64,000 nt of DNA from Zygnema cylindricum (lineage: Eukaryota; Streptophyta; Zygnematophyceae; Zygnematales; Zygnemataceae), in NCBI GenBank assembly GCA_037447655.1, contig JBBHKE010001534.1, positions 62,001 through 126,000 of the forward strand, read 5' to 3'. The notes under the pieces were generated by a model. The model made no database searches, was not told the DNA's origin, and saw nothing but the letters and a program-made list of their open reading frames with translations. Every line of letters begins with the position of its first letter. Positions within the stretch are counted from its first letter, which is position 1. Of the stretch, positions 1,380 through 51,885 are shown one piece after another. A program made the translations under genes and the position numbers.

Positions 1380-1750
1380 GGTACCGCTGCCGATGTACTT
1401 CCGGTACGGCCATTGTACGACATGGCCATAGAGGAGACGCCCATCACCTTCGGACTTGCCTCCGGTTTTTCTCCAAATTCTCTAATCAAATGATGAGGAG
1501 CTCCGTGGCACTTGGTGACATAACGTCCGAAAACGACCAAAGTGACTATTCCGCAATGGCGGCTGGAATAAGAGCCGTCCGATGTTAACCGACATTCAAT
1601 ATAAGCCGTTCAAATTAGTCAACCGTGCGCCTACGAAATACTTTAACTAGTTCTATGTTACAGTTTTATAATTTCGTTAATCGGCTTAATCCAATCTGTA
1701 TTGGTTAATATAATTTTCACACCCTATATATCACAGCACTGGTCCTAGAT

Positions 1751-1822
1751 GAAAGTACAACGCTACCGACTACCGGCTACTCTGACGGACTAGGATCAAA
1801 TCCTTGGTCCGTCAGCCTTTTT
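1751..1822 (+). other. tRNA-like Pol III-type cassette in LTR, antisense to element
   Basis: Box A-like block GCTACCGACTACCGG, box B GGATCAAATCC at 1793-1803, and a run of five T at 1818-1822. Same order and strand relative to the LTR as in the other clade-1 LTRs. It does not fold into a clean cloverleaf, so it is called tRNA-like, not a tRNA gene. Confidence 0.5.
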
Positions 1823-2388
1823 GCTAAAGACTGATCCACCTCCTTTCTTCTAGCTGCTTAGGCAGCCATGGCTTCATCTCTCTCTGCTAGTATTCAGTGA
1901 GTGCAACAAGTATGGCAATTGGGAGAGAGTGGAGCATAGGTGTCAATTAAGTCCCATCTATTTTTTTATATTTTGACCTAGAAAATATATTAAAACTCAG
2001 TTTTTCAACATGGTGTACATCCGAATGAATTCTCGATCTCGAATAACGTGCTTCTATAAGGCTTAAAGTTAGTGACCACGCTCGGTGTGCTTTTTTTTAT
2101 CACCGAGACATTGTTTCGTCTGACGTGACAAGCATATTAGCATAAAGGAAAAAAAAATGTTTGTCCTATTTCAGGGCTGAGGAATTTGCTAGCGTAAACG
2201 AAAGGATTAAATTATTAATTTGGTTTTAGGTTTGAGGGTCAAAATTGAGGGGTACGAAATTAGTACTTATCCACGGTCCACTGTTGTTTTGCGTCTGTTT
2301 TACATCAATTTTTTTAAATTCATTTAAATATACCATTGCACAATATGTGGCACGCAAAAGGCAGTGTGCGATTTAAGGCACAAATAAG

Positions 2389-3093
2389 ACATATGTTCCA
2401 TTAAGCGGTTTCAGTAAACATACATAAACATTTGCTAAGTGTCTTTGTTCTATTGCGTCAGGTCAATAACCGACTTATTATTTGCGTGGCACATTTTGGT
2501 TAGTACCACGTAGGAAACTATTATGATTGTACAAATCTATAAAAAATCTTTGATAACAAGGTGTGAATGCATTATTTGAACAATCGGAGGTAAAAAAAGA
2601 CTAGTACGAGGTATAAAATTTGTACGTACGGACAAAACTTAAATATTTGTGAAAGCATACAAAAATGTCACAATGGTTAGTGGATGGCAAAAAGAGCGCG
2701 AAGAATATCCTCCATAAAAATATTTACGGCGGCTTCCGCTAGCCTTGCATCCACCCTAACGGAGGGCACATGGCCTATGCGACGTGTAACCACTCGATCG
2801 CCCGTTCATCATGGATATTTCCTCAATTTTCCACGATGCAAAATGATATACTTTTAAGCTCAAAAATTTGACCTTCTTTAGGTCACTTGTTGCAAACCAA
2901 AAAGTTTGATCGATGACGTATTTGATTATGTGAAGCATAATATTCGAAGGTCAAGGTTTACCCCCATAACATTGGAAAATAAAATCACTCATTCAGTAAC
3001 CTTGTTTTTTTGACAAAAAAAATATACGATACGACATTATAATAATACTATCGTAAGTAAACAATCTCAATTTTTTCGTAATGGAATATTAGT
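2389..3093. mobile_element. Degenerate MITE copy, PIF/Harbinger-like
   Basis: About 700 bp, the same length as the intact copy at 28417-29114. It shares TTCCATTA near the left end, the inverted form TAATGGAA near the right end, TATTTGCGTGGC in the left half and GGCACATGGCC..GCGACGTGTA in the middle. Ends are too eroded to define a target duplication. Confidence 0.4.
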
Positions 3094-4221
3094 CTAAGCA
3101 TCACGCGAATAGGACGGTTACGTGATTTTACGTTGGACACGACAATGCTTCTATTGTGGTTGTAATGCATTTCGCTTAATAGATCATGAAACATATTCGA
3201 ACTCTAGTCGGCCTACTTTTGAATAATGACGGAAAAGTTTTCTTTCAAGGCGTCGCCATACATCCTCGACGGTTATTACCAAAATGGACGTGAGACGGTA
3301 ATCCACGACCTTCATGTACGCACCAAAGCGGTGTTCCATAGACTTAAAGATTTATCAGCTAAAGTTGGGATTTCATTAGGCGGTGTCAATAAACATATAT
3401 ATACGTTTATTGAATGATGAGCGTTCTCACTATTAGGACGTACGATACTATTAAGATTCTGAACATCTGTAAAGAATCTTTAAAAGGAAAGTGTGAACGT
3501 AAGTATCTGTACCAACGCAGGTAAAAAGTGACACGTACAAACTGTACTATAATGTCATATCTTTAAGGCCTCTATTACATTAGGTGGTCCCAATAAACAT
3601 ACAGACTCTTCTTTTATCACGGTTTAGAGGGTCTTCCATAATATCGGGCAAGTAAAAAACCTCTCACCTACATTAGCTCATTTTGGTTGGTGCCACATAT
3701 GTTTACAAAACACTCATCAGTTAAAACTTACGCCAATAGTATTGGAGCATCTTAAAAGCTATCTTGTATATATGGTTAGTGTGAAAAAAATAAAAATGGT
3801 AAAAATATGTACTAAAACTTAAGTCGTCAAGTAAACAACCCCACCTTTCCTCTAATGGATGACCACTCTACAATTTTTATATAAATTATAGACCTTTGGT
3901 CTACGTTTTTGAACCCTTTAAATAGGATTTGTTTGTCATTTTGCACTTGACCCGGCTGTGGTACGCAAGCGAATGTATGACAAGACAGTACAAAAACATC
4001 TACATGTGGAAAAATGGTATATACCCATGAAATAGGCTCGTAACGGGATCATGTTACTTAAAAAGTAGGTATTCAACAAAACATTACGCTGTATCACCAG
4101 CAGAATATATCATTTGGGAACCACAAAAAACATTGTCGATGCGAGTTTAGGAACTGGCAATGCACGAACAAACCACTGTAAACGAGCCACCTCACCAGTC
4201 GTGTAACTTCCACCCTCAGCC

Positions 4222-7092: not shown

Positions 7093-8101
7093 TGCAATTC
7101 TATGACCTCCATTGGACTACAGAATTCAAGAAGCCTCTCGATAGTATTTAAATAACCCACTTCAAGCCACAACCACTACTGTCCAGGAAAAAAAACTGAC
7201 ATTTTGTCTGCACCCCTATGCAGCCTCGACTCTTTTGAGTTCGTAGCAAAAAGAATCACTAAAAACGGGCCGACCAGCCGATAAGTTATAAGCCGGCAAA
7301 AATGCCAATTTATACAACCTCTCAAAGAGAAAGAAGACCACCTACCAGATTTTTCTAAGTCCTAGCTCCCTCTCACAACCCCTATCTACTAACTATACGA
7401 ACCAATCAGAATACTGTACAATACATAAAAGTACTACTGCCGATGTACTTTTTGTACGACCTTTGTACGACAAGGCCATTAAGCAGACGCGTGTCCATTT
7501 TCCACTCGTCCGTACGTTCCTCGAAATTCCCGCGACCGAATGTTATTTCTCCACGTGACGCCAAGTCATGCCACGTCACTAAATGCCAAAGTGACCATTC
7601 CGGGATTTTGGCGATGATGTGCGCCGTTGGATTTGACTCGAAATGCAATCTCAAACGTTATTAAAATTTGTGCGATATTTGTTTTGCTGTCGAAACAACA
7701 TTGCGCGGTATTTGTTTCAAAGTAGTATCGTACTTCGTACGTTATAAAAATGTATCTATGCATGCCGTATAGAGTTTCAGTTAAATGAATTTGTTCCCTC
7801 CTAAATACATATATATTTATCACATACTACAACATTTAGCATTGGTCCTGCCAACTTGACGAACGGTAGGTACCGGGATCAAATCTTGGGTCCATCAGGT
7901 ATATTTTTGGTAACCTACTAAAAATAATTGCCTGTTGAACAAAGGCAGCTATGGATCAACCACCCTCTCTATCGTTCAGTGACTATAACAAGTATGGGGG
8001 CTAGAGAGAGGAGGTGGAGGCAAGCTGTCCGTCTTTTTATTTTCCTTTTATATTAACATATTAAACCTAGAAAATATTCTAGAAATCTTTTAATTTCAAC
8101 A
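7093..8101 (-). repeat. CopA 3' LTR
   Basis: 1009 bp, TG/CA ends (TGTTGAAATT... ...GAATTGCA on the minus strand). It is preceded on the minus strand by the polypurine tract AAAATAAGGGGAG at 8102-8114. Contains the antisense tRNA-like cassette at 7838-7908 and the GTCGTACAA motif near 7465-7475. Confidence 0.85.
7838..7908 (+). other. tRNA-like Pol III-type cassette in CopA 3' LTR
   Basis: Box B-like GGATCAAATCT at 7876-7886 and T5 at 7904-7908. The box A-like part is weaker than in CopB. Antisense to CopA. Confidence 0.45.
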
Positions 8102-11260: not shown

Positions 11261-12295
11261 TGCAACTCTGAGACCTCCATAGGACCTCAAAGTAGGCAGC
11301 TCACATGAAGCCTCTAAGATAACCCTGAACCCTTTGTCTTTCAGAAAAAAGAACTGCCACCCTAGCAAACAAAAACTATGACCACCTTAACCCGTGTGAA
11401 GGCAAGACTCCCCTGAGTCGATAGCAAAAAGAGTCTGTGAATTTTTTCCATTGAGCAGATAGTTATGAAGGGTCAAATTTGACCTTTTGTACAAAAGCTC
11501 TTTGGGAGAGAGGGTCCTATCTATGAAATTTTTCTAAGTCTTATCTCTCTCTAAAACTCTATCTACTGAAGTACGACACCAATTATAATACTGTATTGTA
11601 CAGAAAGGTACACGTATCGGTGTACTTTCTATACGGCCATTGTACGACATAGCCAATATGTCAACACATGTCATTTTTGGATTTGATCCCGAAATCCCTG
11701 AAAATGTCGTATTCCAATAGGATTGTGCCACGTGTCATTCAATGTGTCATTGACCGCAAACTGTTGAAAATCTATTCCACGATCTCGACAGGTTTCGCGG
11801 CCGTCTGATTAAAACGGATTTCAATCGTAGCCGTCATAAATACTTGCGCGATATTTGTTTCGCCTTCGAAACAAATTGCGCGATATCCATTTCAGATATT
11901 CTATACGCCGTACTTTACAAACTGTTTCTATGTCCAAATATCTTGTTAAATGAAATAGCCTACGTGTACAGATTTATCTTTATATCAAACCCTATATCGC
12001 CCAACCTTGATTCTAGTCTAAATGGCTAAGGCTACCGGCTACAGACAGCTTTGACGGAGGGTAGTTACCAGGTTCAAATCCTAGGTCCGTCAAGTCCTTT
12101 TTTGGTAAATCTACCAATCTAAAGTGTGTTCTCGTCTAGGCAGCATAGGCGGCCATGGCTCTATCTCCCTCTCCAACTTCAAATGACTGCGACAAGTGTG
12201 GGAGTTGGAGAGAGGAGTTAGAGGCAGACTGCATGTGCTTCTTTTGTGTATTTTACACAACCTAGAAAATACTAAAATAGCCTTTAATTTCTAGA
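11261..12295 (-). repeat. CopB 3' LTR
   Basis: 1035 bp. Low-coordinate end TGCAACTCTG matches the 5' LTR. The high end reads CTAGA where other copies have CTACA, so the terminal TG of the minus strand has decayed. A degenerate polypurine tract follows at 12296-12308. tRNA-like cassette at 12023-12103. Confidence 0.83.
12023..12103 (+). other. tRNA-like Pol III-type cassette in CopB 3' LTR
   Basis: The clearest copy. Box A-like TGGCTAAGGCTACCGG begins at 12023, box B GGTTCAAATCC (canonical GGTTCRANTCC) lies at 12071-12081, and T6 at 12098-12103. A 7-nt motif GTCCGTC just after box B can pair with GACGGA(C) upstream. Antisense to CopB. Confidence 0.6.
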
Positions 12296-15300: not shown

Positions 15301-16654
15301 TTTGTTCAGCTCAGGAATAAACAATACATCGGAGAATGTAACTATGGATGTCTTTCCTTCTACTAACACTTTCACATCTACCGATCCTACAAGAGTAGTG
15401 ACTATCCTCCCATCCGCGTACTCTATCTCTACGGTGGGAATTTTTCTTATCTTAGTGAACAGGTGTTTATCTTTACACATGATGGATGCACCTGGGTCTA
15501 CAATCCAGCCTGCTTCACCTTTCAATCCGCCAAAAGCACATTTACGCTTTCGTGGAATTTCGACCTCGTTTTTTGCTTCCAACTCCTCATCCAACAGGAG
15601 TTCATCGTCCTTGTCCACGGATTCCGCCTCATGTACCTGTGTCACAAGGGCCTTTTTCTTTCCTCTCGGGGGTCAACCGGTCTTCCCCTCCTTTAACCGC
15701 AGCTTGGTTTACTTAGTGCATTCAGCCACATAGTGCCCGAGTTTCTTACAAAAATGACATAAACCCTTGGGAGCCCTTGGTCAAACTCGTTAGTCAGATT
15801 TTTCTGCTCCCCCCTTCCGTAATATCAGACCGGTCTTTGGGAATCCTTGTTCCTCCAATCGGTCCCTACTACCACGGCTTGCCCACTCTTTCCTCCCCTT
15901 TGGATCTCAATTGTATTTTCCCGAACGAGAATCATTCCTACAATTGAGTTCCATATCCACCTTGAGTCCGGCAAGTCCAACTCACAGTTGACTATGTTCT
16001 CGAACTCATCGGGTAACTTCATCAGTAGACAGTTCACCTTTTCTTTATCACTAAAATCTTTTCCAGCACTCTCTAGCTCCATGAAAAGTATAGCAAGCTC
16101 ATTTCAAAAATCCAACATCTTCCCCCCTTTGTATACATACTCTTTAACTTTTTGATCAGCCAACTGTTGTTCCTGAATTGTACCACTTCGGTACATCTCT
16201 ATGAGAGTCATCCAAAGATCGGATGCCCTTTCTACCTGCAAATGAGGACATGCAAGTCCTTGAGTAAGATGGCAAAGGATGAAGTGCTTTGCCGCCATAT
16301 TGTGAAGTCCCAGGCATCAGTATAATTCACCTCGTTCCTCGGAATAAGTGACATGAATGCCGAACCAGTTGCTATTGGTGTGGTCGTCTCTTTCTCCTTT
16401 TCTTTGTCCACCACCTCTCCATCCTTTGTCTCCTCCGTTGAAGATGGATCTGCATCTCTAGTGAATCTAACTCATGTAAACCTAAGAGGTATCCCAAGAC
16501 TAGATGGACGCCTCACTCGTCCACTCACTATTCCCCAAAACTGTTTCTCACATAGAGCTCCTGTCATCTTACTTTCCCAGTATATGAAGCCAGCTCCATT
16601 GAATATGGGCACCCTAGATGGTTGGCCTATAACCTGCAACTCTGAAACCTCCAT
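12309..16654 (-). pseudogene. CopB gag-pol, multiply broken
   Basis: Start ATG at 16654-16652, inside the 5' LTR. Gag opens MEVSELQVIGQPSRVPIF. CCHC knuckle CHFCKKLGHYVAEC at 15718-15759. 14929-15645: protease with DPGAS in place of DSGAS, and an integrase zinc site WHKRLGH/CSGCAQGK that looks complete. 14228-14893: integrase core with SNNGGK where others have SDNGGE, so a catalytic Asp is lost. 12844-13734: RT with intact YVDD at 13291-13302. 12414-12804: RNase H in two overlapping frames. Several stops and indels separate these pieces. Confidence 0.85.
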
Positions 16655-17663
16655 AGGACCTCAAAGTAGGTAGCTCACATGAAGCCTCTAGGATAACCTT
16701 GACCCCTTTGTCCTTCAGCACGAATAACTACCACCCTGGCAAACAAAATCTTTGAACACATTCACCCTTGTGAAGACTCCCGTGAGTCGATAGCAAAAAG
16801 AATCTATGAATTTGCTCCTCTGAGCACATAGTTATGAAGGGTCAAAGTTGACCTTTTGTACAAAAGCTCTCTGGGAGAGAGGGTCCTATCTATGAAATTT
16901 TTCTAAGTCCTATCTCTCTCTATTACTCTGTCTATTAAAGTACGGCACCAACTATAATACTGTATCGTACCAAAAGGTACAGGTGTCTGTGTACTTTCTG
17001 TATGGCCATTGTACGACATGGCCAATATGTCGACACATGTCATTATTGAATTCGATCTCGAAATCCATTGAAATGTCGTATTCCAATAGGATTGTGCCAC
17101 GTGTCATTTAATGTGTGGTTGACCGCAAACCGCCGAAAATCTATTCCACGATCTCGACATGTTTCGCGGCTTTCCGATTAAAACGGATTTCAATCTTAGC
17201 CGTCATAAATACTTGCGCGATATTTGTTTCGCCTTCAAAACAAATTGCATGATATCCGTTTCGGATATTCCATACGCCGTAATTTACAAGCTGTTTCTAT
17301 GTCCAAATATTCGTTAAATGAAATAGCCTACGTGTACAGATTTATCTATATATCAAACCCTATATCGCCCAACCTTGATTCTATTCTAAATGGCTAAGGC
17401 TACCGGCTACAGACAGCTTTGACGGACGGTAGTTACCAAGTTCAAATCCTAGGTCCGTCAAGTTCTATTTTGGTAAATCAACCAATCTAAAGTTTGTCCC
17501 TGTCTGGACAGCATAGGCGGCCATGGCTCTATCTCCCTCTCCAACTTTTAGTGACTGCGAAGAGTGTGGGAGCTGGAGAGAGGAGTTAGAGGCAGATTGC
17601 CTGTGCTTCTTTTCTGCATTTTACACAACCTAGAAAATACTAAAATAGCCTATAATTTCTACA
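16635..17663 (-). repeat. CopB 5' LTR
   Basis: 1029 bp, ends TGTAGAAATT and GAGTTGCA on the minus strand. Followed by a decayed anticodon-arm primer site at 16620-16634. Carries the gag ATG (16654) and a tRNA-like cassette at 17391-17471. Confidence 0.85.
17391..17471 (+). other. tRNA-like Pol III-type cassette in CopB 5' LTR
   Basis: Box A-like TGGCTAAGGCTACCGG from 17391, box B AGTTCAAATCC at 17439-17449, T4 at 17468-17471. Stem-forming GACGGAC (17421) and GTCCGTC (17453) flank the box B arm. Antisense to CopB. Confidence 0.55.
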
Positions 17664-18267: not shown

Positions 18268-18403
18268 TATTCAAAAGAGGTAATTAACAGTTCACTTTTC
18301 TATTTTTGTTTTACTTTAAAGAAAGAGAGTAAGGATCAAAAGCACGTTATGGTTGCCGCTATATTTAGAAAGTGGCAGATTTTGAAGTAGAGGATATTTT
18401 ACT

Positions 18404-18486
18404 AAAATGTTGCCTAAGTCCACATTTTAACCTGGGTCTGTGGACTTCTATATAGTCGTACGTCTTAACCACTAAGGCGTTATCGA
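18404..18486 (-). other. tRNA-like Pol III-type cassette in CopC 5' LTR
   Basis: On the minus strand, box A-like TAACGCCTTAGTGG, then about 50 bp to a degenerate box B (GGTTAAAATG), then T4 at 18407-18404. Partner of the better-preserved copy at 23718-23800. Confidence 0.45.
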
Positions 18487-18769
18487 AACGATACACGTGA
18501 CAGGTTTCAAAGATATATAAAAATTAACGCAACAGCTAATTAACAGCAGACTAACCAAAAAGAGCAATTCATGCATGTACGCGAATCTGAACCGTGTAAA
18601 ATATGTCTTGATCAGACGGCCGACATTATAGCCACCACGCGAAGTGAGATTTTGGCGGCATACGGAGATAGCGTCATGCGGTACCACGTGGCGCCACATT
18701 ATTTGATACTGGAGAAGATGGGAGGAGGAACCATGGCTTCCGTTTGACAGGTGTCACCTTGTAGACCTT

Positions 18770-18828
18770 GTCGTACAATGGACGTACAATACGTACATCG
18801 CCCATTGTACCTTCTTGTACTATATATT
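18770..18828 (+). promoter_or_regulatory. LTR promoter region: GTAC cluster and TATA box
   Basis: GTCGTACAA at 18770-18778 is followed by four more GTAC cores within about 45 bp, then TATATATT at 18821-18828. GTACAATGG and CCATTGTAC form an inverted repeat across the block. The same GTAC block recurs in every clade-1 LTR here, usually with a CCAAT/ATTGG motif beside it. CGTACAA is the core of the plant SBP-box factor site (TNCGTACAA). Regulation by such factors is inference. Confidence 0.5.
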
Positions 18829-19134
18829 GTTCCTATTGGACTAGGGTTTAGTAGTAGGTAGTCGTGAGTAGGCAGACCAAGACTTAGTAATATTTAGGTA
18901 CCTCTCTCTAAGAGAGTTTGTAATTATAAAGGTCATCTTTGACCAGCCATAACTTACTGCTCGGGTGAGCAAATTCAGTGATTCTTTTTGCGTTTGACTC
19001 AAGGATGTCTTGTCCTCACAGGGGTGAGGGTGGTCAGAATACTTTTGTGCCTGGGCGGCGCTTATTCAGTGGAAAAGTGGAAGGGTCAAATATTATCCAA
19101 GAGGCTTTACATAGGCTGCTCATTCTGTGGGTCA

Positions 19135-20076
19135 ATGGAGACCACACAATTTCAGGTTATGGGCCCACCCTCTAGGGTGCCCATATTTGATGGATCAGAC
19201 TTTTTGTATTGGGAAATGATGATGGAGGGAGAACTATTTGAGAAGCAACTATGGGGCATAGTGTTTGGACAAATTCGATGCCCACCTCCACCTGGGTTTG
19301 GAGGGACATGTTTTTCTGGAACCTCCGCCTCTACAGTTGGTAGAACAGCTGCCACCATCAGCGAGGATGAAGATGAGGAAGGAGAGGAGATTGTCATGGA
19401 AGGAGAAAAGGGAGGAGTTGCAACTCAAGTGACACCATTGCCGAAGGCGATACTAGCAGCAGCACCACCAGCAACTGCGACAAGGGTTGAGATCGAAAGA
19501 TCAGAGTATGAAAAGTGGAACTACAAAGACAAGGTTGCTAAGCTCTTAATTCTTAAAAGTGTAGCAAAGGGCATTGCCATTCCCCTTATGCATGTCAAAT
19601 CTCCATCTCAGATTTGGATTTCACTAGTTAACAAATATAAGAGTGGATCATTGCAGCAACAACAGTTGGCGGAAAAAAAGATTGCAGCTTATACTTATAA
19701 AGGAGGAAGTATGAATAATTATTGCAATGAATTAGGAGCATTATTTGGAGAGTTAGAGATTGCAGGTAACTCATGGTCTGAGAGACAAAGAGTGAACACA
19801 TTAATGATGAAACTACCTGAAGAGTATGAGAATATCATTAACCGATTGCAGGACATAGGAGATAGCAATTGGAATTGGGATGACACTGTGGGAATGATTT
19901 TAGTGAAAGAAAGCACCATAGAGCTTAGGAGAGGGAGTCCAAGTGTTCAAGCATTGTTTGCAGGAGCTGATTGGCGGAAGCGTGATGAGGATAGAGGGAA
20001 AGATCCCTATCGAAACTTTGGTGGAAGAGGACAAGGAGGTGCCAGATTTTATAGACAGGGGAGAGGAACTTCTTGA
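19135..20076 (+). pseudogene. CopC gag
   Basis: Starts at ATG 19135 inside the 5' LTR, as METTQFQVMGPPSRVPIF; the frame passes through the LTR end and primer site. An upstream open stretch reaches 18988, but the ATG homologous in all other copies is 19135. About 313 codons to a TGA at 20074-20076. The middle (roughly residues 120-260) resembles the copia gag (UBN2/retrotran_gag) domain, with QQQQLAEKKIAAYTYKGGS. The CCHC knuckle CHFCKNPGHYMGDC follows the stop in the same frame at 20086-20127. Confidence 0.85.
19155..19169 (+). other. Primer binding site, tRNA-iMet anticodon-arm type
   Basis: GGTTATGGGCCCACC directly follows the LTR CA. Its complement, GGTGGGCCCATAACC, is the anticodon stem-loop of plant initiator tRNA-Met as I recall it. 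This resembles Drosophila copia, which is primed by a 5' half of this tRNA. The same bases also code for gag residues. Confidence 0.7.
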
Positions 20077-23581: not shown

Positions 23582-24456
23582 CGTTGAAAAGAGGTAATTA
23601 ATAGTTCACTTCTCTATTTTAGTTTTACTTTCAAGAAAGAGAGTAAGGATCAAAAGCACGTCATGGCTGCCGCCATATTTAGAAAGTGGCAGATTTTGAA
23701 GTAGAGGATATTTTACTAAAATGTTGCCTAAGTCCAGATTTGAACCTGGGTCTGTGACCTTCTATATAGTCGTACGTCGTAACCACTAAAGCGTTATCGA
23801 AACGATACATGTGACGGTTTCAAAGATATATTAAAATTAACACAACAGCTAATTAACAGCAGACTAACCAAAAGGAGCAATTCATGCATGTACGAGATCT
23901 GAACCGTGTAAAATATGTTTTGATCGGACGGCCGGCATTTAGCCGCCACGCGAAGTGAGATTTTGGCGGCATACGGAGATGGGGTCACGCGGTGCCACGT
24001 GGCACCACATTATTTGATATCGGAGAAGATGGGAGGAGGAACCATTGCTTCCGATTTGACAGGTGTCACCTTGTAGACCTTGTCGTACAATAGATGTAGA
24101 ATAAGTACATCGCCCATTGTACCTTCTTGTACTATATAGTGTTCCTATCGGACTAGGGTTTAGTAGTAGGTAGTCGTGAGTAGGCAGACCAAGACTTAGT
24201 AATATTTAGGTATCTCTCTCTAAGAATATAAAGGTCATCTTTGACCAACCATAACTTACTGCTCGGGTGAGCAAATTCAGTGACTCTTTTTGCGTTTGAC
24301 TCAGGGGTGTCTTTTCTTCACAAGGGTGAGGATGATTAAAATACTTTTGTGCCTAGGCGGCGCTTATTTAGTGGGAAAGTGGAAGGGGCAAATATTATCC
24401 TAGAGGCTTTACATCGGCTGCTCATTCTGTGGGTCAATGGAGACCACAGAATTTCA
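23582..24456 (+). repeat. CopC 3' LTR
   Basis: 875 bp, begins CGTTGAAAAG (TG decayed to CG) after the polypurine tract and ends in AATTTCA before the duplicated GGCCC. TATA-like TATATAG at about 24134. tRNA-like cassette at 23718-23800. Confidence 0.88.
23718..23800 (-). other. tRNA-like Pol III-type cassette in CopC 3' LTR
   Basis: Minus strand: box A-like TAACGCTTTAGTGG (23796-23783), 50 bp spacing, box B AGGTTCAAATC (23746-23736), CCAG/CTGG stem around the box B loop, then T4 at 23721-23718. CopC is on the plus strand, so the cassette is again antisense to its element. Confidence 0.6.
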
Positions 24457-24607
24457 GGCCCTTTCCATCTCCATATAGAAACAGAAAAGATCATTACAGT
24501 AATCTAACATCTTTCCTCCTTTGTATGTGTAACTCACTAGCTTTTGCTCAGCCAACTGAAGCTCCTAAATAGTTCCAACTTTATAGATCTCCACCAAACT
24601 CACCCAT
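24457..24607 (-). pseudogene. CopA gag fragment
   Basis: Joins 18267 after removal of CopC and one GGCCC. Its minus-strand sequence aligns with CopE gag around 43590-43740. It ends abruptly at 24607, where a deletion fuses gag to LTR sequence. Confidence 0.75.
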
Positions 24608-25034
24608 TAAATGTCGACCGCCGAACCAAATGTCCGATTCATTTGTTTCGTGCGAAATGACGTCCGCACTTAACTTTAACAAGTTCTATGTTCCTTCGTT
24701 TAAATTCCAGTTAATTGATTTCAGTACCATACAATAGTTTAAACAAATATCAATTCTATATCACCTAACGGACTTCTACGACAAACTTGATATAGTTACC
24801 GGCTATGCGCTCTGCCGGTTGAAGGTTCGAGTCTTGCCAGACTCAACCTTTTGTTGAGAGTGACTTAAGTCACTCTTCAGTCCTTTCTATGGAGCTGAGG
24901 CAGTCATGGCTCCATTGCTCTCTCTCTCTCTTTCAGTGACTACAGCAAATATGGGGGCAAGTGAGTAGAGATGGAGGCAAGCTGCATGCATTTTCTTTAT
25001 CTGTTTCCACTAATATTTTAGACCTATTTCAACA
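24608..25034 (-). repeat. CopA 5' LTR remnant
   Basis: Only the upstream part of the LTR is left, ending at TTTCAACA 25034 (LTR start on the minus strand). A tRNA-like cassette is present at 24779-24852 with box B GGTTCGAGTC (24824-24833) and T4 at 24849-24852, followed by a short hairpin CTCAAC/GTTGAG and a longer AGAGTGAC/GTCACTCT pair. Confidence 0.78.
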
Positions 25035-31661: not shown

Positions 31662-32440
31662 TGAAGTTTTTGGAAAGCTTTCAGTCTCAGCAAATTAGTA
31701 AGATGGTAGAAAGATAGTAATTTGTAGTGTAATGACATGCGTCATCACTTGAGTCCAGTATAGGACAACGCAACTGCTATGCAGACAAATCAGCGCAGCA
31801 GTAGAGCAGCGTAGCTGCTGTCTGCTATGCAGACAGAGCAGCGCAGCAGCTAAGCTACGACACACACAGGACAACGCAACTGCGGTTACTTTGGATATAA
31901 TCCGTATAGACAACGCAGCTATTGTTATCTTGAATATGATTCGGTACGGACAACACACCTGCGATTGATTCGAATCAAGTCAATGGACCTCAACTTAGTG
32001 GGTAGCTCTGTGGTACCTCAATGGTAGCTTAGTGGTAGCTCAGTGTAGCTCAGTGGTAGCTTAGTATTAGCTTGGCAACTTGACGTACCTCTCAGGTACA
32101 CTAGTATTGCCGGTACAACACTAGTATAAGACTTAGGACTCAGAACACATGATGTATCCAGACTTCCAAGTAGTAAAACAACAAATAGTTTTTGGGAAAC
32201 TTCTGAGTATTATACCTTGAGTGTTGTTGGGTCAATTGTGCTGAAACTTTGGGAGTTGTCAATTTTTATGCTACTCTATATTTTGATAGAGTTTTGTGAG
32301 GTTTGGATTCTTGTATAAGAATTGGTGAGCACTTGAAAATAGCTGTTTGGTAGGATTCTTGATAGCTTCTGAGAGTGTATCATGTCTACTTCTACTACTA
32401 CTGCTGCCCCTCCACGTGCACCGGTGGTTGTAGAACAACA
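31662..32440 (+). repeat. CopD 5' LTR
   Basis: 779 bp. Contains GCAGCGCAGC-rich palindromic sequence at about 31770-31920, a TAGCTYAGTGG array at 32002-32072 and the gag ATG at 32382. The base after the LTR starts TGTTATTGGCTTG, which could be a diverged form of the clade-1 primer site. Confidence 0.85.
32002..32072 (+). repeat. Tandem box A-like decamer array in CopD 5' LTR
   Basis: About six units of GTAGCTCAGTG / GTAGCTTAGTG / GTACCTCAATG. TAGCTCAGTGG equals the tRNA box A consensus TRGCNNAGYNGG. No box B found within 100 bp. The better copy is at 37018-37074. Confidence 0.5.
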
Positions 32441-35400
32441 TGTTATTGGCTTGTATTCAAGAATTCCTATCTTTTTTGGGGAAAAGTATGTTTGCTGGGC
32501 GGATATGGTGGAGACACATTTTGAGAATGTAAATCTTTTGGATATATTGGATGGTTCGCTGGATGAATATGATCCGTCATGGTCTAAGGAAAATACGCAA
32601 GCTCGCTCTATTTTGAAATTTTTTATATCTGAGGACTTAGCTATGTCTCGGATAAAAATGAAAAAAACTATTGATATCTAGAAATCCCATAAAGTGATTA
32701 TGAAAAGGCTAATGTCTAGGAAGAGCTTCTATTGGCTGGAAAAATTTGGGACTATAAGTACACTGGCGGTACAATGGCTAAATATTCTAACAAATTTCAC
32801 ATCCTTGTAGATGCACATGCTTGTACAGGTGGGGTGTTTCCTCCGTTTCAACAGGCAGCTTTTATGATGAGGGGTCTCCCTTGTAGTATGAAAGGAGCAT
32901 CTGACATGCTCAAACAGAAAGATAAAGCTAGCTCGACTTTACAGTTAGCCATCAATATTTTACTAGAGGAGGAAGCTACATCTAATATTCTCAATGTTGA
33001 GAAAGTAGAGGCTTTTAATTCAGACTTTGGGAGGAAAGGTCAGTTTAATCAGCAACGTAATCAGTTTAACTAGGTCAGACAGTTTAATCAGGGTGGAAAT
33101 AGACAATCCAACAATGCATGTTTTTATTGTAGTGAGAGAGGTCATGGATACAAATTCTGCCCTAAACTTAAGAAAGCTAACGATACAAGTTTATACAGGC
33201 CGGGATGGCAACAAATTCAGTTTTACAAAAGCTTCACGGGGCCTACACCTCGTGGAAATGCACTATTTTCAGCTTTTTCATCACTCTAGGACGAGACTCT
33301 AACATTTTTTGAGGAGGACGACACGGATCTATTCGCTATGGCGGCAGCAATAGAGAGCGCGAAGGACCCTAGATGGATAATGGATACAGGAGCGTCAGCC
33401 CACATGTGCTGGAACAAGGCCATCTTCAAAAATCTGAAAGCAACGCCGGAGAAAAATATTTATTATGCTTGTGGAATGAGTGTCCAGACTTGTGCTGATG
33501 TGATGTGTCCTTGCTAGTTGATGTAGAAGGAAAACCAATTGAAAGGACTCTTCACAATGTCTTATTTGTGCCTGACTTTAAGAAGAATCTGTTTTCTACG
33601 TCGTTGGTAGAGAGTAAAGGCTTTGAGGTTAATTTGAAAAATGGTCGGCAGGTTGTTAGCAAAAATGGCAAGGTTGCGGTTACAGGTCCTAGAGATAGTA
33701 GCAAGATGTACCGTATGGATATGGCTAATACCAAGGAGAATGATGTTCTGTAATCCGGTGTTTTGCACTCAGATGAGTTGTGGCATAAAAGATTAGGCCA
33801 TGTAAATTATTATAGTTTGAGGAAAATGGTCCTTGCTGGAAAAATAGAGGGTGTGTCAATCAAAGATGGGCCGGTCAAAACTTGTGATGGTTGCGCTTTA
33901 GGCAAAATCCACAGATTGCCGTTTCCTAAAGAGTCTGAGCATCGGTCAACGAAACTTTTACAACAAATTCATTCGGATGTTTTTGGTCATGCGAAGGTCC
34001 CATCTGCCGGGGGGATGAAATATATGGTCACTTTCACAGATGATTTCTCTAGGTTTACAAAAGTTTACTTCATGAAGGAGAAGAGTGAAGTGTTTGGTCA
34101 CTTCAAACACTATAAAGCATGGGTTGAAAAACTTCATAATTCACCTATTTTGCACCTCAGATCGGACAATGGTGGTGAATATACGTCGAAAGAATGTGAA
34201 ACCTTTTTACTCGAGGAAGGTATTAGTCATCTATTGACTGTTCCATATTCACCGGAACAAAATGGGGTGTCTGAAAGACTAAAAAGAACTCTTACGGAGA
34301 GCTCTAGGTCGATGCTCGCAGATAAAAATGTGGATCCGAAATTCTGGGTTGAGGCTCTATATTGTGCAGTTTATATTAAGAAAAGGATAGGATTCAGATC
34401 GGTAGACACTACTCCTTACGAAATCTCGACAGGTAGCAAACCGGATGTTAGCCATTTCAAAGTCTTTGGTAGTCAATGCTTTATCTTGGATACGTCTACA
34501 AATAGATGGAAATTGGAACCGAAGGGATTACCGGGTATTTTGTTAGGATATGAAGATCACTCAAAAGGTTATAGAGTCTTTGTGTTTGAGAGGCAGAAAA
34601 TAGTTGTCGCAAGGAATATCATTGTTAAAGATGAACTACACTCCATAGATTTATTTCAAACGACAGAGCAACAAAAGCAACAAAGGTACAAGAGTATGTC
34701 ATTTTAGATTGCATACAAGAAATCGTCCCGAAGATTCAACATTCCCCGATGGTGACTTCGGAGTCAGACTCTCTCCAATTTTTTCACCAACTTCGGGTCC
34801 AACCGGACCAACAACGGAAAGTACGCACAGATCGCAACCTGCGCACTCAACGCAATGCACGGCATCCGACGATCTCCGGAGGGAAGAAGATCTAGGAGCC
34901 GCCTGCAAGCAAACTCTCACTTTGCCTGCTCGGCAGCCTCAGGGGAGCCTTTGACCATTCAGGAGGCCTTCTCATCACCAGAACGAAATCACTGGATCGA
35001 GGCAGAAAACGACGAAATGAAGTCCATCATGGAGGCTCAAACATGAGAGCTTGTGGACCTTCCTCCGGACCGAAAAGCGATCGACAGCAAATGGGTATTT
35101 AAGGTGAAGTTAAATCCCGATAACACCATTGAACGTTATAAGGCTAGACTTGTGGCAAAGGGGTACAATCAAAAGGAAGGAATCGATTTTGAACAAACAT
35201 TTTCTCCGGTTGTAAGATTTGCGACAGTTAGGATTTTGCTGTCCCTAGCTGCTATAGAAGATATGGGTATACATCAGATGGATGTAAAGACAACCATTTT
35301 GCATGGAGAACTAGAAGAGACAATTTACATGCACCAGCCTGAAAAGTATGCAGAACCAGGAAAAGAGCACTTAGTATGCAAGTTGCTAAAATCTCTGTAC

Positions 35401-36520
35401 TGCCTAAAATAGGCCAGACAGTGGAATCTGAAGCTTGATGAATTCTTGACTAGCCTAGGATTTCAAAGGATAAGTACTGATCACTCTGTCTAGGTTCTAA
35501 AGGGTGAAAATGGGATAGTGTATATAGGGGTGTATGTGGATTATTTACTATTAAATAGCAAATCAATGGCTGAAATTAACAAAATAAAAAATGCTCTAAA
35601 CTCACGGTTCGAGATGAAAGACCTTGGTGAGGCAAAATATATTTTGGGTATCTAGGGAGAGAGGGATAGAAATAAGAAAGTAATAAAATTGACTCAAAAG
35701 GAGGCTATTGGAAACATGTTAGATGAGTACGGAATGCGGGGGGCAAAAGGATATCTAACTCTAATGGAGTTTCGGCAGAAGTTAGAGGGAGAAGAGACAG
35801 AACCAGGTGTCATTGTTAGCGAGTATTTAGAATCAAGGGAGAATGATTCTATGACAAAAATACCTTACAGACAGAGAGTGGGAAGCCTAATATAATTCAT
35901 GAATTGTACCCGTCTTGACATTGTTGCAGCAGTCAGGGTACTAAGCAGGAGTCTAGAGAATCCGAGAAAATCTGATTTTGATGTAGCAAGGAGAGTCTTA
36001 AGATATTTGGCAGGAACCAAAGACCTCAAACTCACACTAGGCGGAGGAGAAGTGAAGCTGCAAACGTGGAGTGATGCAAGCTATGGCGACATGCCAAGCC
36101 GGATATCCACCACGGGATTCGTTCTACAAATTGGGAACGGTACTTGCTGCTGGAGCAGCAAACTTCAGAAGGTTACAGCACAGTCCACAATGGAGTCAAA
36201 ATATATGGCAGCAAGCTCGGCCCTCAAAGAACTCTTATGGGTAAAATCCATATTACAAGAACTAGGATACATGCAGATTGGTGCATAAGTGATCTGGTGT
36301 GACAACCAGGCTGCCATTGTCATTGCTTCTAACCCGAGTCATCAGTTCAAAAGCAAGCACATAGATGTAAGATTACACTTTGTAAGAGAAAAAGTGTTCT
36401 CTAGAGTGATTAAATTATATTATTCGCCAAACGCAAAAATGATTGCTGATATGCTCACCTAAGCCCTTTTCGCTCCTAAACTGAAGTATTCCAAAGACGC
36501 AGTGGGATTATGTGAATAGT
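32382..36520 (+). pseudogene. CopD gag-pol, broken by stops and frameshifts
   Basis: ATG 32382 inside the LTR opens MSTSTTTAAPPRAPVVVEQH. Gag pieces at 32382-32681 and 32732-33073. CCHC knuckle CFYCSERGHGYKFC at 33119-33160. Protease DTGAS at 33383-33397. Integrase ORF 33763-34707 with WHKRLGH, CDGCALGK, HSDVFG, SDNGGE and NGVSE; the second Asp and the Glu are separated by 35 residues, as in D,D-35-E. RT from about 35053 with QMDVKTTILHGE and YVDY at 35533-35544 (last catalytic Asp lost). RNase H 35899-36288 with WSDASYGD and MESKYMA. The frame ends at a stop near 36520. Confidence 0.85.
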
Positions 36521-36676
36521 TGAATTGCTATACTGCTATATTGCGATGCTGCGCTAAGTCCAACATTGAGATGTAGTGGGACTGGGTGACTTGCTAATTG
36601 CTATATTGCTATGCTGCGATGCTGCGCTAGTTTGTCATCGCAGCTGCGCCGGTATACTGAGTCTAAAGCTGGGGAG

Positions 36677-37445
36677 TGTAGTTTTTAGAAAGCTTTCAGT
36701 CTCACCAAATTAGTAGGATGGTAGAAAGATAGTAATTTGTAATGTAATGACATGCATCATCACTTGAGTGCAGTATAGGACAACGCAACTGCTATGCAGA
36801 CAGATTAGCACAGCAGGAGAGCAGCGCAGGAGCGCAGCTGCTATGCAGACAGAGCAGCACAGCAGCTAAGTTGCGACACATACAGGACAACGCAGCTGCG
36901 GTTACTTTGGATATAATCCGTACAAAAAACGCAGCTACTGTTATCTTGAATATGATTCGGTACGGACAACGCAGCTGCGATTGATACGAATCAAGTCAAT
37001 GGACCTCAACTTAGTGGGTAGCTCAGTGGTAGCTCAATGGTAGCTTAGTGGTAGCTCAGTGGTAGCTTAGTATTAGCTTGGCAACTTGACGTACCTCTCA
37101 GGTACACTGGTATTGCCGGTAAAACACTAGTATAAGACTTAGGACTCAGAACACATGATGTATCCAGATTTCTAAGTAGTAAAACTGCAGGTAGTTTTTG
37201 GGAAACTTTTGAGTATTATATTTTTAGTGTTGTCGGGTCAATTGTGCTGAAACTTTATGAGTTGTCAATATTTATGCTACTCTATATTCTGATAGAGTTT
37301 TGTGAGGTTTGGATGTTTGAATAAGAATTGGTGAGCACTTGAAAACAACCGTTTGGAAGGATTTTTGATAGCTTCTGAGAGTGTATCATGTCTACTTCTA
37401 CTACTACTGATGCCCCTCTTCCAGCACGGTGGTTGTAGAACAACA
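36677..37445 (+). repeat. CopD 3' LTR
   Basis: 769 bp, closely similar to the 5' LTR, including the GCAGC-rich part and the box A-like array at 37018-37074. The LTR-internal ATG (37388) is retained. Confidence 0.85.
37018..37074 (+). repeat. Tandem box A-like decamer array in CopD 3' LTR
   Basis: GTAGCTCAGTG, GTAGCTCAATG, GTAGCTTAGTG, GTAGCTCAGTG and GTAGCTTAGTA in direct tandem: five units of about 11 bp, more regular than the 5' LTR copy. Confidence 0.6.
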
Positions 37446-38542
37446 TAAGTGTTCTCACATGATGCGCGGCTATTTTTTTTTTTGTTTTAAATGCCAAAGC
37501 TCGTGTTCTCACGTGACGTGTGACTTAGTTGTTCGAAGGATAAAATGGTATTACTTAAAGTGTGAACGTTGATTATATTATGTAGATATTTTGAGTTGGA
37601 AACTCGATTTACATGTTCTCGTGCGACCCTCGTGACGCTATTTGTGTTAAATTCTCTACATGCGAACGCAATAAGTCTGAACACTTTTTTTTTTGTTTTT
37701 TTTTTGTCCATGTAACCTAATCAGCAAAGAGATTCCTTAAAAAAATTCTTCGCGTTTCGCGCGATATTTTTTTGTCCTTATAAATAACTGGGAGATATTG
37801 ACATTGCTTGGGCAAAATCCTCCTCAAAGGTCGCCCTCCCCCCAATGTGTAAGGGCTTGTTCCCATGTTTTGATGTAAGGGTTTTTTTCGTCATTTTCAC
37901 AAAAAATGGGACTACCAACGAAAGAAAAATACGCCGTACGACAAATGGGCAAAAACGCAAAGACATTTTGCGTCCTCTGGGAACTTGGAAGGTACGGCAA
38001 TTTGGCATTATTATCACCGTGATCCACTCCCAACTCATCTTGACACTTGTAATAGAATCAAATCACGATCTGATTTTAACCAAAATAACACCCTATTAAC
38101 AAATAGAAAACATGTATTGCACGCGTTAAACGTCTTCGAATTTTTCTGAACGAAAGAGAGTACACGCTATATTTTTCCATACTCGTCACGAGCATGTACG
38201 TACAAAAATGACAAGCATATATGGAAAAAAAATCGTTGGGGTCTTGGACCTCCACTTTCATTCATGGATCCTTTGCAAAAACTTACAACGTCATCGTCTC
38301 TCCCCATCTTTTTGATTCGACTGCTACTCTGTCTTTCATCTCTAAATGAAATACAACAATAATAGTATCAAAGAAAAGATATATTTTTTTCTTTTTTTTT
38401 TAATAGTTTTGGTCTCATTTTGATGGCGTATAAAATAATTAATGGTAAAAAAAGGAAATCGGGAATCCATTCCAGAAATTTTACGTGTTGATGACGTCAT
38501 AAGGTAGCAAATGTTGAATTATTAGATTTATAGGGTATTTTT
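37446..38542. other. Noncoding AT-rich spacer
   Basis: No gene seen. Long T tracts, GTGTTCTCACATGATGCG and GTGTTCTCACGTGACGTG near the left side, and overlapping ORFs on both strands at 37778-38099 without domain features. Confidence 0.45.
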
Positions 38543-38798
38543 TGTAACCCTGTGACCTCCATAGGTCCTTAAAGTAGGCAACTCACACGAAGACTCTAGG
38601 ATAACCCTCACCCCTTTGTGTTTCAGCAAAAATAATTGCCACCCTGGCAGAAAAAAAACCCAAAACACCTTGACCGTGGTGAAGGCAAGACTCCCCTAAG
38701 TCTATAGCAAAAAGGATCTCTGAATTTGCTCCCCTGAGCAATAAGTTATGGAGTGTCAAAGTTGACCTTTTGTACTGAAGCTCTCTAGGAGAGAGGGC
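38543..38798 (-). repeat. CopB-type LTR fragment, 3' part
   Basis: Low-coordinate end TGTAACCCTGTGACC is a decayed LTR terminus. The fragment follows the CopB/CopF LTR up to GGAGAGAGGG and is then cut by CopE. The remainder of this LTR is not found directly on the other side of CopE. Confidence 0.7.
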
Positions 38799-39782
38799 TG
38801 AAACTCTGTGTCCTCCATTGGACTACAAAATACAAAAAGCCTTTAGATAGTTATTAACTAACCCACTTTCAATGATAACCAGTGCTACCCAAGCAGACAA
38901 TCAGATAATCTAATTTCACCCCTCTACAGCCTGGACTCCCTTAAGTCCGTAGGAAAAAGAATCTCTGAAAACGCCCAACCAGGCGATAAGTTATGAGGAA
39001 GTAAAAATGCTAATTTGTACAAACTCTCAAAGAGAGAGGTGACTGCCTACAAAATTTACTAAGTCCTGATTCCCTCTAATAACTCTTATCTACTGAAGTA
39101 CGGACCAATCAGAATAGTGTACCGTATCAAAAAGTACTACTGCCGGTGTACCTTTTGTATGGCCTATGTACGACAAGGCTATTAAGCGGACGCGTGTCCA
39201 CTTTTCACTCATCCGTCCGTTCCTCAAAATTCACGCGACTGAATGTTATCTCTCCATGTGGCGCCAGGTCATGCCACGTCACTAAATGCCAAAGTGACCA
39301 TTCCGAGATACCGCCGATGATGTGTGCCGTCGGATGGGATTTCGTTTTTGATCTCAACCGTCAAAACAAATGTCAGATTCATTTGTTTCGTGCGGAATCA
39401 TATTCGTACTGTATTTTATCCGCTCCATGTATTTATGTCCGTATTTTTGTTAATCAGAATAACTACCGTAACACTGGATAAGTATTTATCAAACCCTATA
39501 TTTTCTAGCGAACTTCTACAACAAACTGGTTAGAGCTAACGGCTACGCCATGCTGTGTCGGTCGGGGGTTCGAGTCCTACCAGACTCAACCTTTTGTTGA
39601 GAGTGACTTAGGTCACTCTTTAGTCTTGCACAAATGGAGTTGAGGTAACCATGGCTCCACTACTCTCTCTCTCTCCTTCAGTGACTACAACAAGTATGGG
39701 GGATGGAGAGAGAAAGGTGGAGAAAGAGTGCTTGCGCTCTTTTCACTTTTTATTTAGACTTAAAAAATACTTATTTTCAACA
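38799..39782 (-). repeat. CopE 3' LTR
   Basis: 984 bp with TG/CA ends. tRNA-like cassette at 39517-39595, GTAC block at about 39135-39180. Confidence 0.85.
39517..39595 (+). other. tRNA-like Pol III-type cassette in CopE 3' LTR
   Basis: Box A-like ACAACAAACTGGTTAGAGC, box B GGTTCGAGTCC (perfect) at 39567-39577, T4 at 39592-39595. The stretch from TGGTTAGAGC to GGTCGGGGGTTCGAGTCC resembles the D-arm to T-arm of plant tRNA-Asn as I recall it. The T-run sits inside the hairpin CTCAAC/GTTGAG and is followed by AGAGTGAC/GTCACTCT. Antisense to CopE. Confidence 0.6.
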
Positions 39783-42700: not shown

Positions 42701-44174
42701 TAAACTTGATCTCCATACTTAGCTATAAAGACTCCCTTTCGAGTGAAGGTATCAAACTCTTTGTTATCTAACAAGGACATAGAGACAAGATTTTTACTCA
42801 GCTGAGGAATGTAGAGTACATCTGAGAATGTAAGTATAGAAGTATTACCCTCCATTAAGACTTTCAGATCTACTGATCGCAGTAGATCTGTAGTAACCAG
42901 TCTCCCATCCCCATACTATATCTCTACAATAGGGATCTTTCTTTGCTTAGTGAAGGGTTCTTTATCACGACACATATACATGGATGCACCTGAGTCGATA
43001 ATCTATCCTTCCTGTGGAGCTTCCTGAATTGCTCCAAGGACACACTTTTGTCTCCAAGGGATTTCTTTCTCCTCCAAACTCTCGTCAAAAATAAGCTCCC
43101 TATCCTTCAGAAGACTCTTCCCCGGTTTTCCCTATCACTTTTGTAACCACAAGTGCCTTTTTCTTCCCACTGGAAGAACCCTCTCCACGGTTCTCTTGGA
43201 GCCTCAGCTTTGACAGCTTGACAAAATCTGCGATGAAGTGTCTCGGCTTTTTGCAAAAATGACAAAGACCCTTTGGGGGCCTCGGTCCTCCTAAATGATC
43301 TCTTTCCCCTTTGTACGGTTTCTTCGGGTCTTTCCCCCATCGGTCCCCTCATGCTCTTAGAGATTGAATGCTCTTTCCTCCTCTCCTAATATCCATTGTG
43401 TTTTCTTGCACAAGTATCATCCTGACCACTGTGTTCCATTTCCATAAACTATCCGGCATTTCCTGTAATCGGAACATTATGTTCTTGAATAGGCATTTCC
43501 TGTAATCGGAACACTATATTCTCGTATTCATCTGGTAACTTTATAATAAGGGTGTTAACTTTCATTTTCATTGTACATGTCCACCCGGCACTTTCCATCT
43601 CCATATACAAACAAGAAAGATCATTAAAGTAATCTATCATCTTTCCTCCTTTGTAAGTGTAACTCACTAGCTTTTGCTCAGCCAACTGGAGCTCTTGAAT
43701 AGTTCCAGCTCTATAAATCTCCACCAAACTCACCCACAACTCCTCGGCCTTGTAAATGTGAAGATGAGGGGTGGCCAAAGCTTGAGTGAGGTGCCTCAGA
43801 ATGAAGTTCTTAGCAGCCATGTTTACATCCTCCCACATTTGAGTATCGTTCTTCGCGGTCTTCACGGTCGCCGCTCCCGGTACTGTGGCAATAGGAGTGA
43901 GGGGTGTCTCCTTCCCTTTTCCCTTTTCGGACACATTGTTGTCCCTATCATCTGCCTCTTTCGATGAGGCAGCAGTTGCTGTTAGAAACCTTGCTCCTTG
44001 AAATCTTGGTGGAGTTCCTAAAGGTGGACGTTTCACTCGTCCTCTGACGATACCCTAGTATCGATTTTCGCACAAAGCTTCCATCATCATGGCTTCCCAA
44101 AAGATGAAACCAGATCCATTGAAGGTAGGCACTTTAGAGGGTGGGCCCATAACCTGAAACTTTGTGTCCTCCAT
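39796..44174 (-). pseudogene. CopE gag-pol, broken
   Basis: ATG 44174-44172 in the LTR; frame reads MEDTKFQVMGPPSKVPTF and hits a stop, then gag continues at 43449-44036. CCHC knuckle at 43223-43264 is CHFCKKPRHFIADF, last Cys lost. Protease DSGAS near 42985-42999 is kept. 42514-42855 and 42147-42509: integrase zinc site WHKRLGH/CSGCAQGK, HTDIWG, SDNGGE. 41868-42077 and 41559-41834: integrase end and linker. RT at 41106-41363 and 40705-40956 with YVDN in place of YVDD at about 40786. RNase H at 39796-40158 and 40382-40597. At least eight lesions. Confidence 0.83.
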
Positions 44175-51384: not shown

Positions 51385-51885
51385 TGCACCTTGGCGTTTT
51401 GTGACGTGGCATGACCTGGAGCCACGTGGAGAGATGACATTCGGTCATAGGAATTTCGAGGAATGTACGGACAAGTAAAAAGCAATAACGCGTCCATTTA
51501 ATAGCCTTGTCGTACATAGACTGTTCAAAAGGTACACCGGCAGTAGTACCTTTTGGTATGGTACAGTAATTTGATTGGTCCGTACTTCAGTAGATAAAAG
51601 TTATTAGAAGGAATCAGGACTTAGAAAATTTTGGTAGGTAGTCACCTCTCCCTTTGAGAGTTTGTAAAAATTGGCATTTTTAGTGCCTCATAACTTATCG
51701 GCTGGTTGGCCGTTTTCAGTGATTGTTTTTGCTACGGACTCAGGGGAGTCCAAGCTGCACAGGGTTGCAGTCAATTTGTCAGTTTGCCTTCTTGGGCAGC
51801 AGTGGTTGTGGCTTAAAGTGGGTTAGTTAAATACTATCTAGAGGCTTCCTGTAATCTGTAGTCCAATGGAGGACACAGAATTTCA
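51385..51885 (+). repeat. Truncated clade-1 LTR fragment, opposite orientation
   Basis: Plus orientation 3' half of a CopE/CopG-type LTR, ending GACACAGAATTTCA at 51885. It starts mid-LTR exactly where CopF ends, so about 500 bp are missing. Confidence 0.75.

Follow-up and report, generated by a model that had tools for sequence, protein, structure and literature searches.

The long terminal repeats (LTRs) of a copia family in Zygnema cylindricum carry, antisense to the element, a tRNA-like unit laid out as a type-2 Pol III gene, with boxes A and B, an upstream TATA-like site and a T-run at plausible spacing. Judged by its sequence, this unit could in principle give rise to a short RNA in the antisense direction. 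We favor the reading, with a probability of about 0.58, that it is a type-2 Pol III unit of tRNA origin, which active elements maintain and which would yield an RNA of ~90-100 nt antisense to U3. We analysed a stretch of 64,000 nucleotides (G000:C1148:62001-126000; hereafter the window) and searched the assembly of 352.8 Mb. A preliminary description had listed 15 antisense tRNA-like units in LTRs of the window. We read all of these places, and all 15 lie in copia LTRs or LTR fragments, several of the units being eroded or cut. Three features go beyond that description: the upstream TATA-like site, a stem in the main subfamily, and a T-arm resembling that of initiator tRNA (iMet).

Host elements and the units in their LTRs

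The window is a nest of copia elements. Retrotran_gag_2, Pol_BBD, gag_pre-integrs, rve and RVT_2 were matched in the scanned ORFs (Pfam), and the hosts have the copia gag, the integrase ahead of the reverse transcriptase (RT), the LTR pair and the sequence like a primer-binding site (PBS) that mark Ty1/copia elements. A protein search with the copia RT gave matches reaching 54% identity, and most of those that carried a name were from plants; we therefore call the elements plant-type. Four elements (E1-E4) retain both LTRs, 88-92% alike within pairs, and LTRs of the family are about 0.9-1.2 kb long. E1-E3, measured across both LTRs, span about 6.2-6.5 kb and show homology to gag-pol, and thus are not TRIMs, which are short and non-coding. 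The LTR pairs are as follows.

11261-12293, - strand (E1 lies on the - strand): 3' LTR of E1, 90% identical to 16635-17661; ends judged by eye
16635-17663, - strand: 5' LTR of E1 (LTR pair 90%)
44929-45985 and 50337-51384: LTRs of E2, 88% alike
18270-19156 and 23584-24458, element on the + strand: 5' and 3' LTRs of E3, 92% alike
38797-39780 and 44154-44928: LTRs of E4, 92% alike; the second stops where E2 starts

A PBS-like sequence, GGTTATGGGCCCA, is common to E2, E3 and E4; it adjoins the 5' LTR of E2 and E3, and an altered version is present at E1. We take it to be the complement of the iMet anticodon loop, presumably used for half-tRNA priming as in Drosophila copia. This primer type is reported for fungal Helenus and Copia elements (Kojima 2024, PMC10886601). 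The start of E2 (44928-44929) falls within box B of the E4 LTR, with no clean 5-bp target duplication by eye. Targeting of integration to Pol III sites was considered as the unit's purpose and rejected: E2 does lie in the E4 box B, but E1 and E3 lie in internal regions.

In the paired elements E1-E4, the unit is always antisense to the element. It sits in U3, where about 140-290 bp separate it from the 5' end of an LTR of 0.9-1.05 kb, upstream of the predicted Pol II start. A T-run usually follows, as the preliminary description had stated: T4 or longer is present at 13 of the 15 places (9 T4, 3 T5 and 1 T6), those at 44873 and 58831 being the exceptions. The unit of the E1 3' LTR is laid out as follows.

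12023-12103, + strand: unit of the E1 3' LTR as first listed; the TATA-like site, box A, box B and T6 given below are all on the antisense strand
11979-11986, + strand: TATA-like site (TWTAWATA with one mismatch), 45 nt before the box A loop
12014-12025, + strand: box A, TAGTCTAAATGG, an exact fit to TRGYNNARNNGG
12024-12032, + strand: D-loop-like GGCTAAGGC, overlapping the end of box A
12051-12058, + strand: 5' arm of the acceptor-like stem, TTGACGGA, pairing with 12086-12093
12071-12081, + strand: box B, GGTTCAAATCC, T-loop-like
12086-12093, + strand: 3' arm of the acceptor-like stem, TCCGTCAA, partner of 12051-12058
12098-12103, + strand: T6 terminator-like run

The other 14 places in the window are listed below, some confirmed by a bait search as well as by reading.

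17391-17471, + strand: unit of the E1 5' LTR; box B with 1-2 mismatches
45699-45777, + strand: unit of the E2 LTR 44929-45985; read and bait search
51108-51185, + strand: unit of the E2 LTR 50337-51384; box B with 1-2 mismatches
18404-18486, - strand: unit of the E3 5' LTR; box B eroded
23718-23800, - strand: unit of the E3 3' LTR; read and bait search
39517-39595, + strand: unit of the E4 LTR 38797-39780; read and bait search
44873-44928, + strand: unit of the other E4 LTR, truncated inside box B by the start of E2; no T-run
1751-1822, + strand: unit of an LTR fragment; poor box A (3 mismatches)
7838-7908, + strand: partial unit; box A lost
24779-24852, + strand: E4-type unit of an LTR fragment; read
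51980-52060, - strand: unit of the LTR-like stretch 51387-52079; box B with 1-2 mismatches
54857-54932, + strand: unit of the LTR fragment 54569-55127; read
56829-56903, + strand: E4-type unit; read and bait search
58831-58925, - strand: E4-type unit, eroded; box B eroded, T3 only

Outside the window, a young copy (L047, G000:C15:41300-46100) has LTRs 99.3% alike over 1054 bp, and both carry an identical unit with TATA-like site, boxes, stem and T4. This copy has an open frame of 601 codons in which gag is the sole Pfam match, with apparent RT/RNase H remnants by eye. The window also contains a copia element of another lineage (31662-37446), whose pol is mostly 63-65% identical to that of the other elements; its LTRs (31662-32441 and 36677-37446, 90.7% alike), the one such pair checked, lack the unit.

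Promoter anatomy and occurrence across the assembly

Promoter anatomy was examined in 43 units (23 found with baits and 20 with a pattern); two of them had a poor box A and were excluded. A TATA-like site lay upstream in 37 of the remaining 41, compared with 9% of background windows, and in 24 of these 37 units the first such site was 50-52 nt before the box A loop. Box A had at most two mismatches to the canonical TRGYNNARNNGG in 31/41 units against 2.7% of background positions, a count favored by a site chooser that shares two G of box A; the other ten had 3-4 mismatches. Box B came 36-40 or 45-47 nt after the box A loop, with three exceptions among the 41. T4-T7 followed 22 of the 23 bait-found units (12 T4, 8 T5, 1 T6 and 1 T7); the 20 pattern-found units had been selected for TTTT and were left out of this count. 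With units judged by their boxes, a T-run followed 21/23, compared with 17% of 28-nt windows from other parts of these U3s, the site chooser having given T a small bonus in this comparison. T4 is a weak Pol III stop in many organisms. Descriptions of plant tRNA genes give TATA and CAA motifs ahead of the gene, A and B boxes within it and T-runs, with TATA preceding only 22-32% of angiosperm tRNA genes (PMC11700998). No clear CAA start was seen in the unit, and the stretch where the start is expected was conserved at 0.45 across 23 U3s, which is not above average.

Box B alone was rejected as evidence for the unit, since its count in the window was at chance level: 22 sites with at most one mismatch, compared with 20.65 (sd 4.95) in 20 first-order Markov sequences. 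When TTTT was required no more than 30 nt after box B, the window had 13 sites against 2.95 (sd 1.88) expected, and 9 of the 13 were listed units. One strict pattern of box B plus T4 gave only 6 matches and was set aside. Throughout the species' own assembly, a degenerate unit pattern matched 11,522 times against 24 for its backwards control (overlapping counts). The matches listed for this pattern collapse to 67 sites, of which 65 were used.

As baits, we used R-U5 pieces of E1-E4, which are free of the unit, on the window and 20 fetched stretches. Among 31 bait-found LTRs with a complete bait start, the unit was antisense in 24, sense in 2, reversed in 1 and complement in 0 (score of at least -2), 6 of the 20 stretches having been picked for box B matches. 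In stretches not picked for box B (L012, L013, L016 and L023, three of them on the window's own contig), the same test found the unit in 7 of 8 LTRs, and a profile recovered it in the eighth (L012 2693-2809). A flank-only profile took 26 of the 31 LTRs, and 23 of these 26 have the unit.

We also fetched 20 of the 65 pattern sites, spread over 13 of the first 33 contigs. R-U5 was on the opposite strand at 19/20 and on the same strand at none, and at 18/20 the bait began where it was expected, at 301-443 nt of the fetched piece. At one of the 19 opposite-strand sites (L063), R-U5 was a 112 bp piece out of place; the one site of the 20 that gave no R-U5 match (L048) resembles the family U3 by eye. 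Ten same-strand pairs of sites were 5393-5404 bp apart, a spacing that we read as the distance between the two LTRs of one element. At G000:C17:247071-255379, two kinds of unit lie ~555 bp apart and are repeated 2.28 kb further on, suggesting duplication of a piece made of two LTR parts.

Conservation and RNA shape

U3 identity between copies ranges from 41% to 91%, and the boxes and terminator persist across these diverged LTR types, as had been noted before. To rank conservation, we used islands of 9 columns in the 23 U3s having the unit, over pairs less than 62% identical (199 of 253). Box B, the best conserved box of the unit, ranked fourth (0.754) and the T-run fifth (0.728), below a CACGTG island (0.848), a GCCATG island (0.847) and CCGTCTGAT (0.778). 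In E1, two of the U3 islands that outrank the boxes lie at 11728-11736 and 12149-12157: CCACGTGTC, with a G-box-like CACGTG, and the palindrome-like GCCATGGC.

A combined mask of box A, box B and T-run, slid along U3, scored 0.474 on average (sd 0.074) and 0.655 at its true place, a value reached by 3 of 465 placements, itself included; this set of U3s had been picked for presence of the unit, which favors the boxes. With 26 U3s selected by their flanks, the combined mask scored 0.619 (reached by 14/467 placements) and box B plus T-run alone 0.669 (9/505). The excess conservation of the boxes is thus real but moderate, and by itself suggestive rather than decisive. Of the earlier suggestion of selection on the boxes, conservation somewhat beyond the U3 average was supported; the excess weakened in the flank-selected set, and other islands rank higher. 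We accordingly lowered our estimate for the preferred reading slightly and raised that for inheritance of a captured gene.

Between diverged lineages of the box-selected set, the boxes differed at 31.8% of sites and the rest of U3 at 48.6%. Within the LTR pairs of E1, E2 and E3, the boxes differed at 6/84 sites and the rest at 141/1566. The boxes thus appear to be preserved as long as elements are active, and copies decay once inserted.

In the main subfamily, a stem of 8-9 bp encloses the T-arm, with arm pairs TTGACGGA/TCCGTCAA, TGCCGGCC/GGCCGGCA and TGTCGGCC/GGCCGACA. Arms from the same copy paired better than swapped ones (mean 6.35 vs 5.56, sd 0.13), and a pairing score of at least 7 was reached by 23 of 65 own arms, compared with 10.8 when swapped. 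At least 6 of 9 stem pairs were present, in the best register, in 49 of the 65 copies. Read on the antisense strand, the stem cells of those 49 comprised 364 Watson-Crick, 29 G-T, 15 A-C and 33 other, the excess of G-T over A-C being small and coming from a small sample of related copies. Many copies, and the E3 and E4 types, have a degraded stem or none. Antisense segments folded slightly better against shuffles than sense segments (z -2.23 vs -1.87, paired p 0.004, 62 segments), and the folding of single window units was unimpressive (z from 0.07 to -2.4).

Recognition by tRNA models, which the preliminary description had proposed as a check, failed: ARAGORN found 0 tRNA genes in the window, and when the window and the 20 fetched units were scanned with Rfam, no tRNA family reached E<=10. 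A functional tRNA gene was rejected on these grounds. Against a generic plant iMet sequence, the variable loop, T-arm and acceptor start of main-subfamily units matched at 24/27 positions (C10:156301) and 21/25 positions (C19:49385). With this generic query, the T-arm fit was confined to the main subfamily, and no D-arm match to iMet was seen. We also compared units with 20 tRNA genes of the same genome, taken from 63 matches as one per score class, so that some isotypes are absent. The best scores of E3-type units were with tRNA-Gln, whilst those of E4 types were with tRNA-Lys, followed by Phe and Arg; these elongator scores were 16.5-18 for E3 and 15.5-16.5 for E4 units, compared with 7-12 for iMet. 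The box A loop of E1 equals that of tRNA-Arg at 11/12 positions. As whole units, E3, E4 and three of five genome units stood well apart from shuffles (z 4.0-8.5), the remaining genome units C22 and C17 gave z 2.5 and 2.7, and E1 (z 2.2), E2 (z 0.9) and the unit at 1751 (z 0.9) were little above shuffles; at 1751 the reverse complement outscores the forward strand against tRNAs.

Competing explanations and related systems

In the reading that we prefer, the antisense strand of U3 would present box A preceded by a TATA-like site, then box B (usually 36-47 nt past the box A loop) and the T-run, through which TFIIIC and TFIIIB would recruit Pol III. The product would be ~90-100 nt long, antisense to U3, and would stop inside the LTR. 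In the main subfamily, this RNA would end as an acceptor-like stem stacked on the T-arm, the shape by which RNase P and RNase Z recognise tRNAs, and so it may be processed. Active elements would retain the unit and inserted copies would lose it neutrally. The benefit is our guess and the least certain step: a structured antisense U3 RNA might be had without need of a Pol II promoter, and the Pol III complex might also help to hold the LTR accessible. We infer transcription, RNA length, processing and benefit alike from sequence. A more tentative extension, which we think possible but would not bet on, is that a coding copia lineage has a second, antisense Pol III system whose tRNA-like minihelix RNA is used by the element and is kept by its gag-coding derivative too. 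Such an RNA may anneal to the element's genomic RNA at its 3' end or undergo tRNA-like processing, or the system may hold the LTR open.

The boxes would also suit a site that binds TFIIIC, and perhaps TFIIIB, without productive transcription, serving as an insulator, a nucleosome-free patch or a nuclear-position signal like extra-TFIIIC sites, with the RNA irrelevant. TFIIIC acts as an insulator or positioning factor elsewhere, and that box B is the best conserved box agrees with such a role. The T-run (22/23), the TATA-like site at its preferred distance (37/41) and the paired stem would, however, be superfluous for a mere TFIIIC site; they favor real transcription, and we consider the silent site unlikely. 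Capture of a SINE or tRNA gene, inherited without function, is a rather improbable account of the whole. It is the origin that Kojima proposed for Helenus (PMC10886601), and it fits the tRNA-like halves, the SINE-like spacing, the shared descent of the copies and the only moderate conservation excess in flank-selected LTRs. It would explain where the unit came from but not its upkeep, as boxes and T-run outlast much of the neighboring U3, and the other-lineage LTR pair that we checked has no unit.

A further alternative gives the function to the sense strand: U3 of the genomic RNA would pair with the T-arm (and D-arm) of a tRNA as a bipartite PBS, and the unit would be its mirror image. The model is Ty3, in which the second part of the bipartite PBS is reported to lie within the 3' UTR (PMC4974528). 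The idea is attractive for the iMet-like subfamily, given the close match to a generic plant iMet (24/27 and 21/25 positions) and the PBS-like GGTTATGGGCCCA, taken as the complement of the iMet anticodon loop. It leaves E3 and E4 unexplained, since they share that PBS with E2, yet their units prefer elongator tRNAs over iMet. It also gives the T-run and TATA-like site no role, and the lean of G-T over A-C (29 vs 15) points to the antisense strand; we consider this account quite improbable. Ordinary Pol II control motifs that resemble boxes by coincidence would be in keeping with the other conserved islands of the same U3, such as CCACGTGTC, but coincidence hardly accounts for a TATA-like site, box A, box B and T-run jointly ordered and spaced on one strand, and we give it very little credence.

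Pol III units in LTRs are of a known kind, occurring in Cassandra, Helenus, Ajax and foamy-virus cassettes, and a Pol III transcript from the MLV LTR is also known. The heads of tRNA-derived SINEs likewise have boxes A and B at tRNA-like spacing with the cloverleaf gone; unlike them, the present unit was never free-standing at the 20 pattern sites fetched, of which 19 are R-U5-linked and one, L048, is U3-like by eye. Cassandra had been named as the nearest precedent, but others come closer. Its LTRs do contain a Pol III promoter in a plant element; this is a 5S rRNA promoter, in a non-autonomous element, and is described as standing in for the element's Pol II promoter (PMC10853983). No 5S rRNA match was found at E<=10 in Rfam scans of the window and 20 fetched units. 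Helenus/TRIMp3 elements are nearer: their LTRs have tRNA-derived boxes A and B, mostly with no functional tRNA, and fungal families have an anticodon-loop iMet PBS and Copia partners (PMC10886601). Ajax is treated beside Helenus as another LTR with a Pol III unit, and the sole plant species given with a characterised Helenus family is Selaginella moellendorffii (PMC10886601). Helenus elements are 311-1263 bp long and gene-free (PMC10886601), whereas the present ones are ~6.4 kb with gag-pol, plus a gag-coding derivative. The Helenus promoter is regarded as driving transcription of its own element (PMC10886601), whereas the present unit is antisense (R-U5 opposite at 19/20, same strand 0). The word 'antisense' is absent from the main text of Kojima 2024, where the case is made that autonomous partners have to rely on Pol II and are unlikely to have long LTR sequence in common with TRIMp3 (PMC10886601). 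Foamy viruses come close in another way, with a Pol III unit of ~120 nt and its terminator in U3 of a coding retroelement; unlike the present unit, these cassettes give hairpin pri-miRNAs, belong to vertebrate retroviruses and, in that account, are not described as tRNA-like (PMC6950176).

The open-licence PMC literature searched yielded no case of a tRNA-like Pol III unit lying antisense in an autonomous LTR retrotransposon. Within that literature, the full-size coding hosts of a tRNA-like unit, its antisense direction and its spread over diverged subfamilies are new. If the unit works, one LTR would be shared by two polymerases running in opposite directions, and Pol III promoters would no longer be confined to miniature elements among those with LTRs, contrary to what has been stated. 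A coding plant-type retrotransposon would have a built-in antisense RNA, a possible route to self-limitation, silencing or evasion, and thousands of Pol III-like sites would be spread through one genome. LTRs of this kind may also be encountered, as a possible pitfall, in the annotation of tRNAs, SINEs and Pol III ChIP peaks.

Two minor observations concern repeats. At 52995-53601, LTR pieces of this copia family lie in scrambled order and are in part inverted. In the fetched stretch L021, positions 1540-3701 form a tandem repeat with several frames open, which translates into a repetitive peptide.
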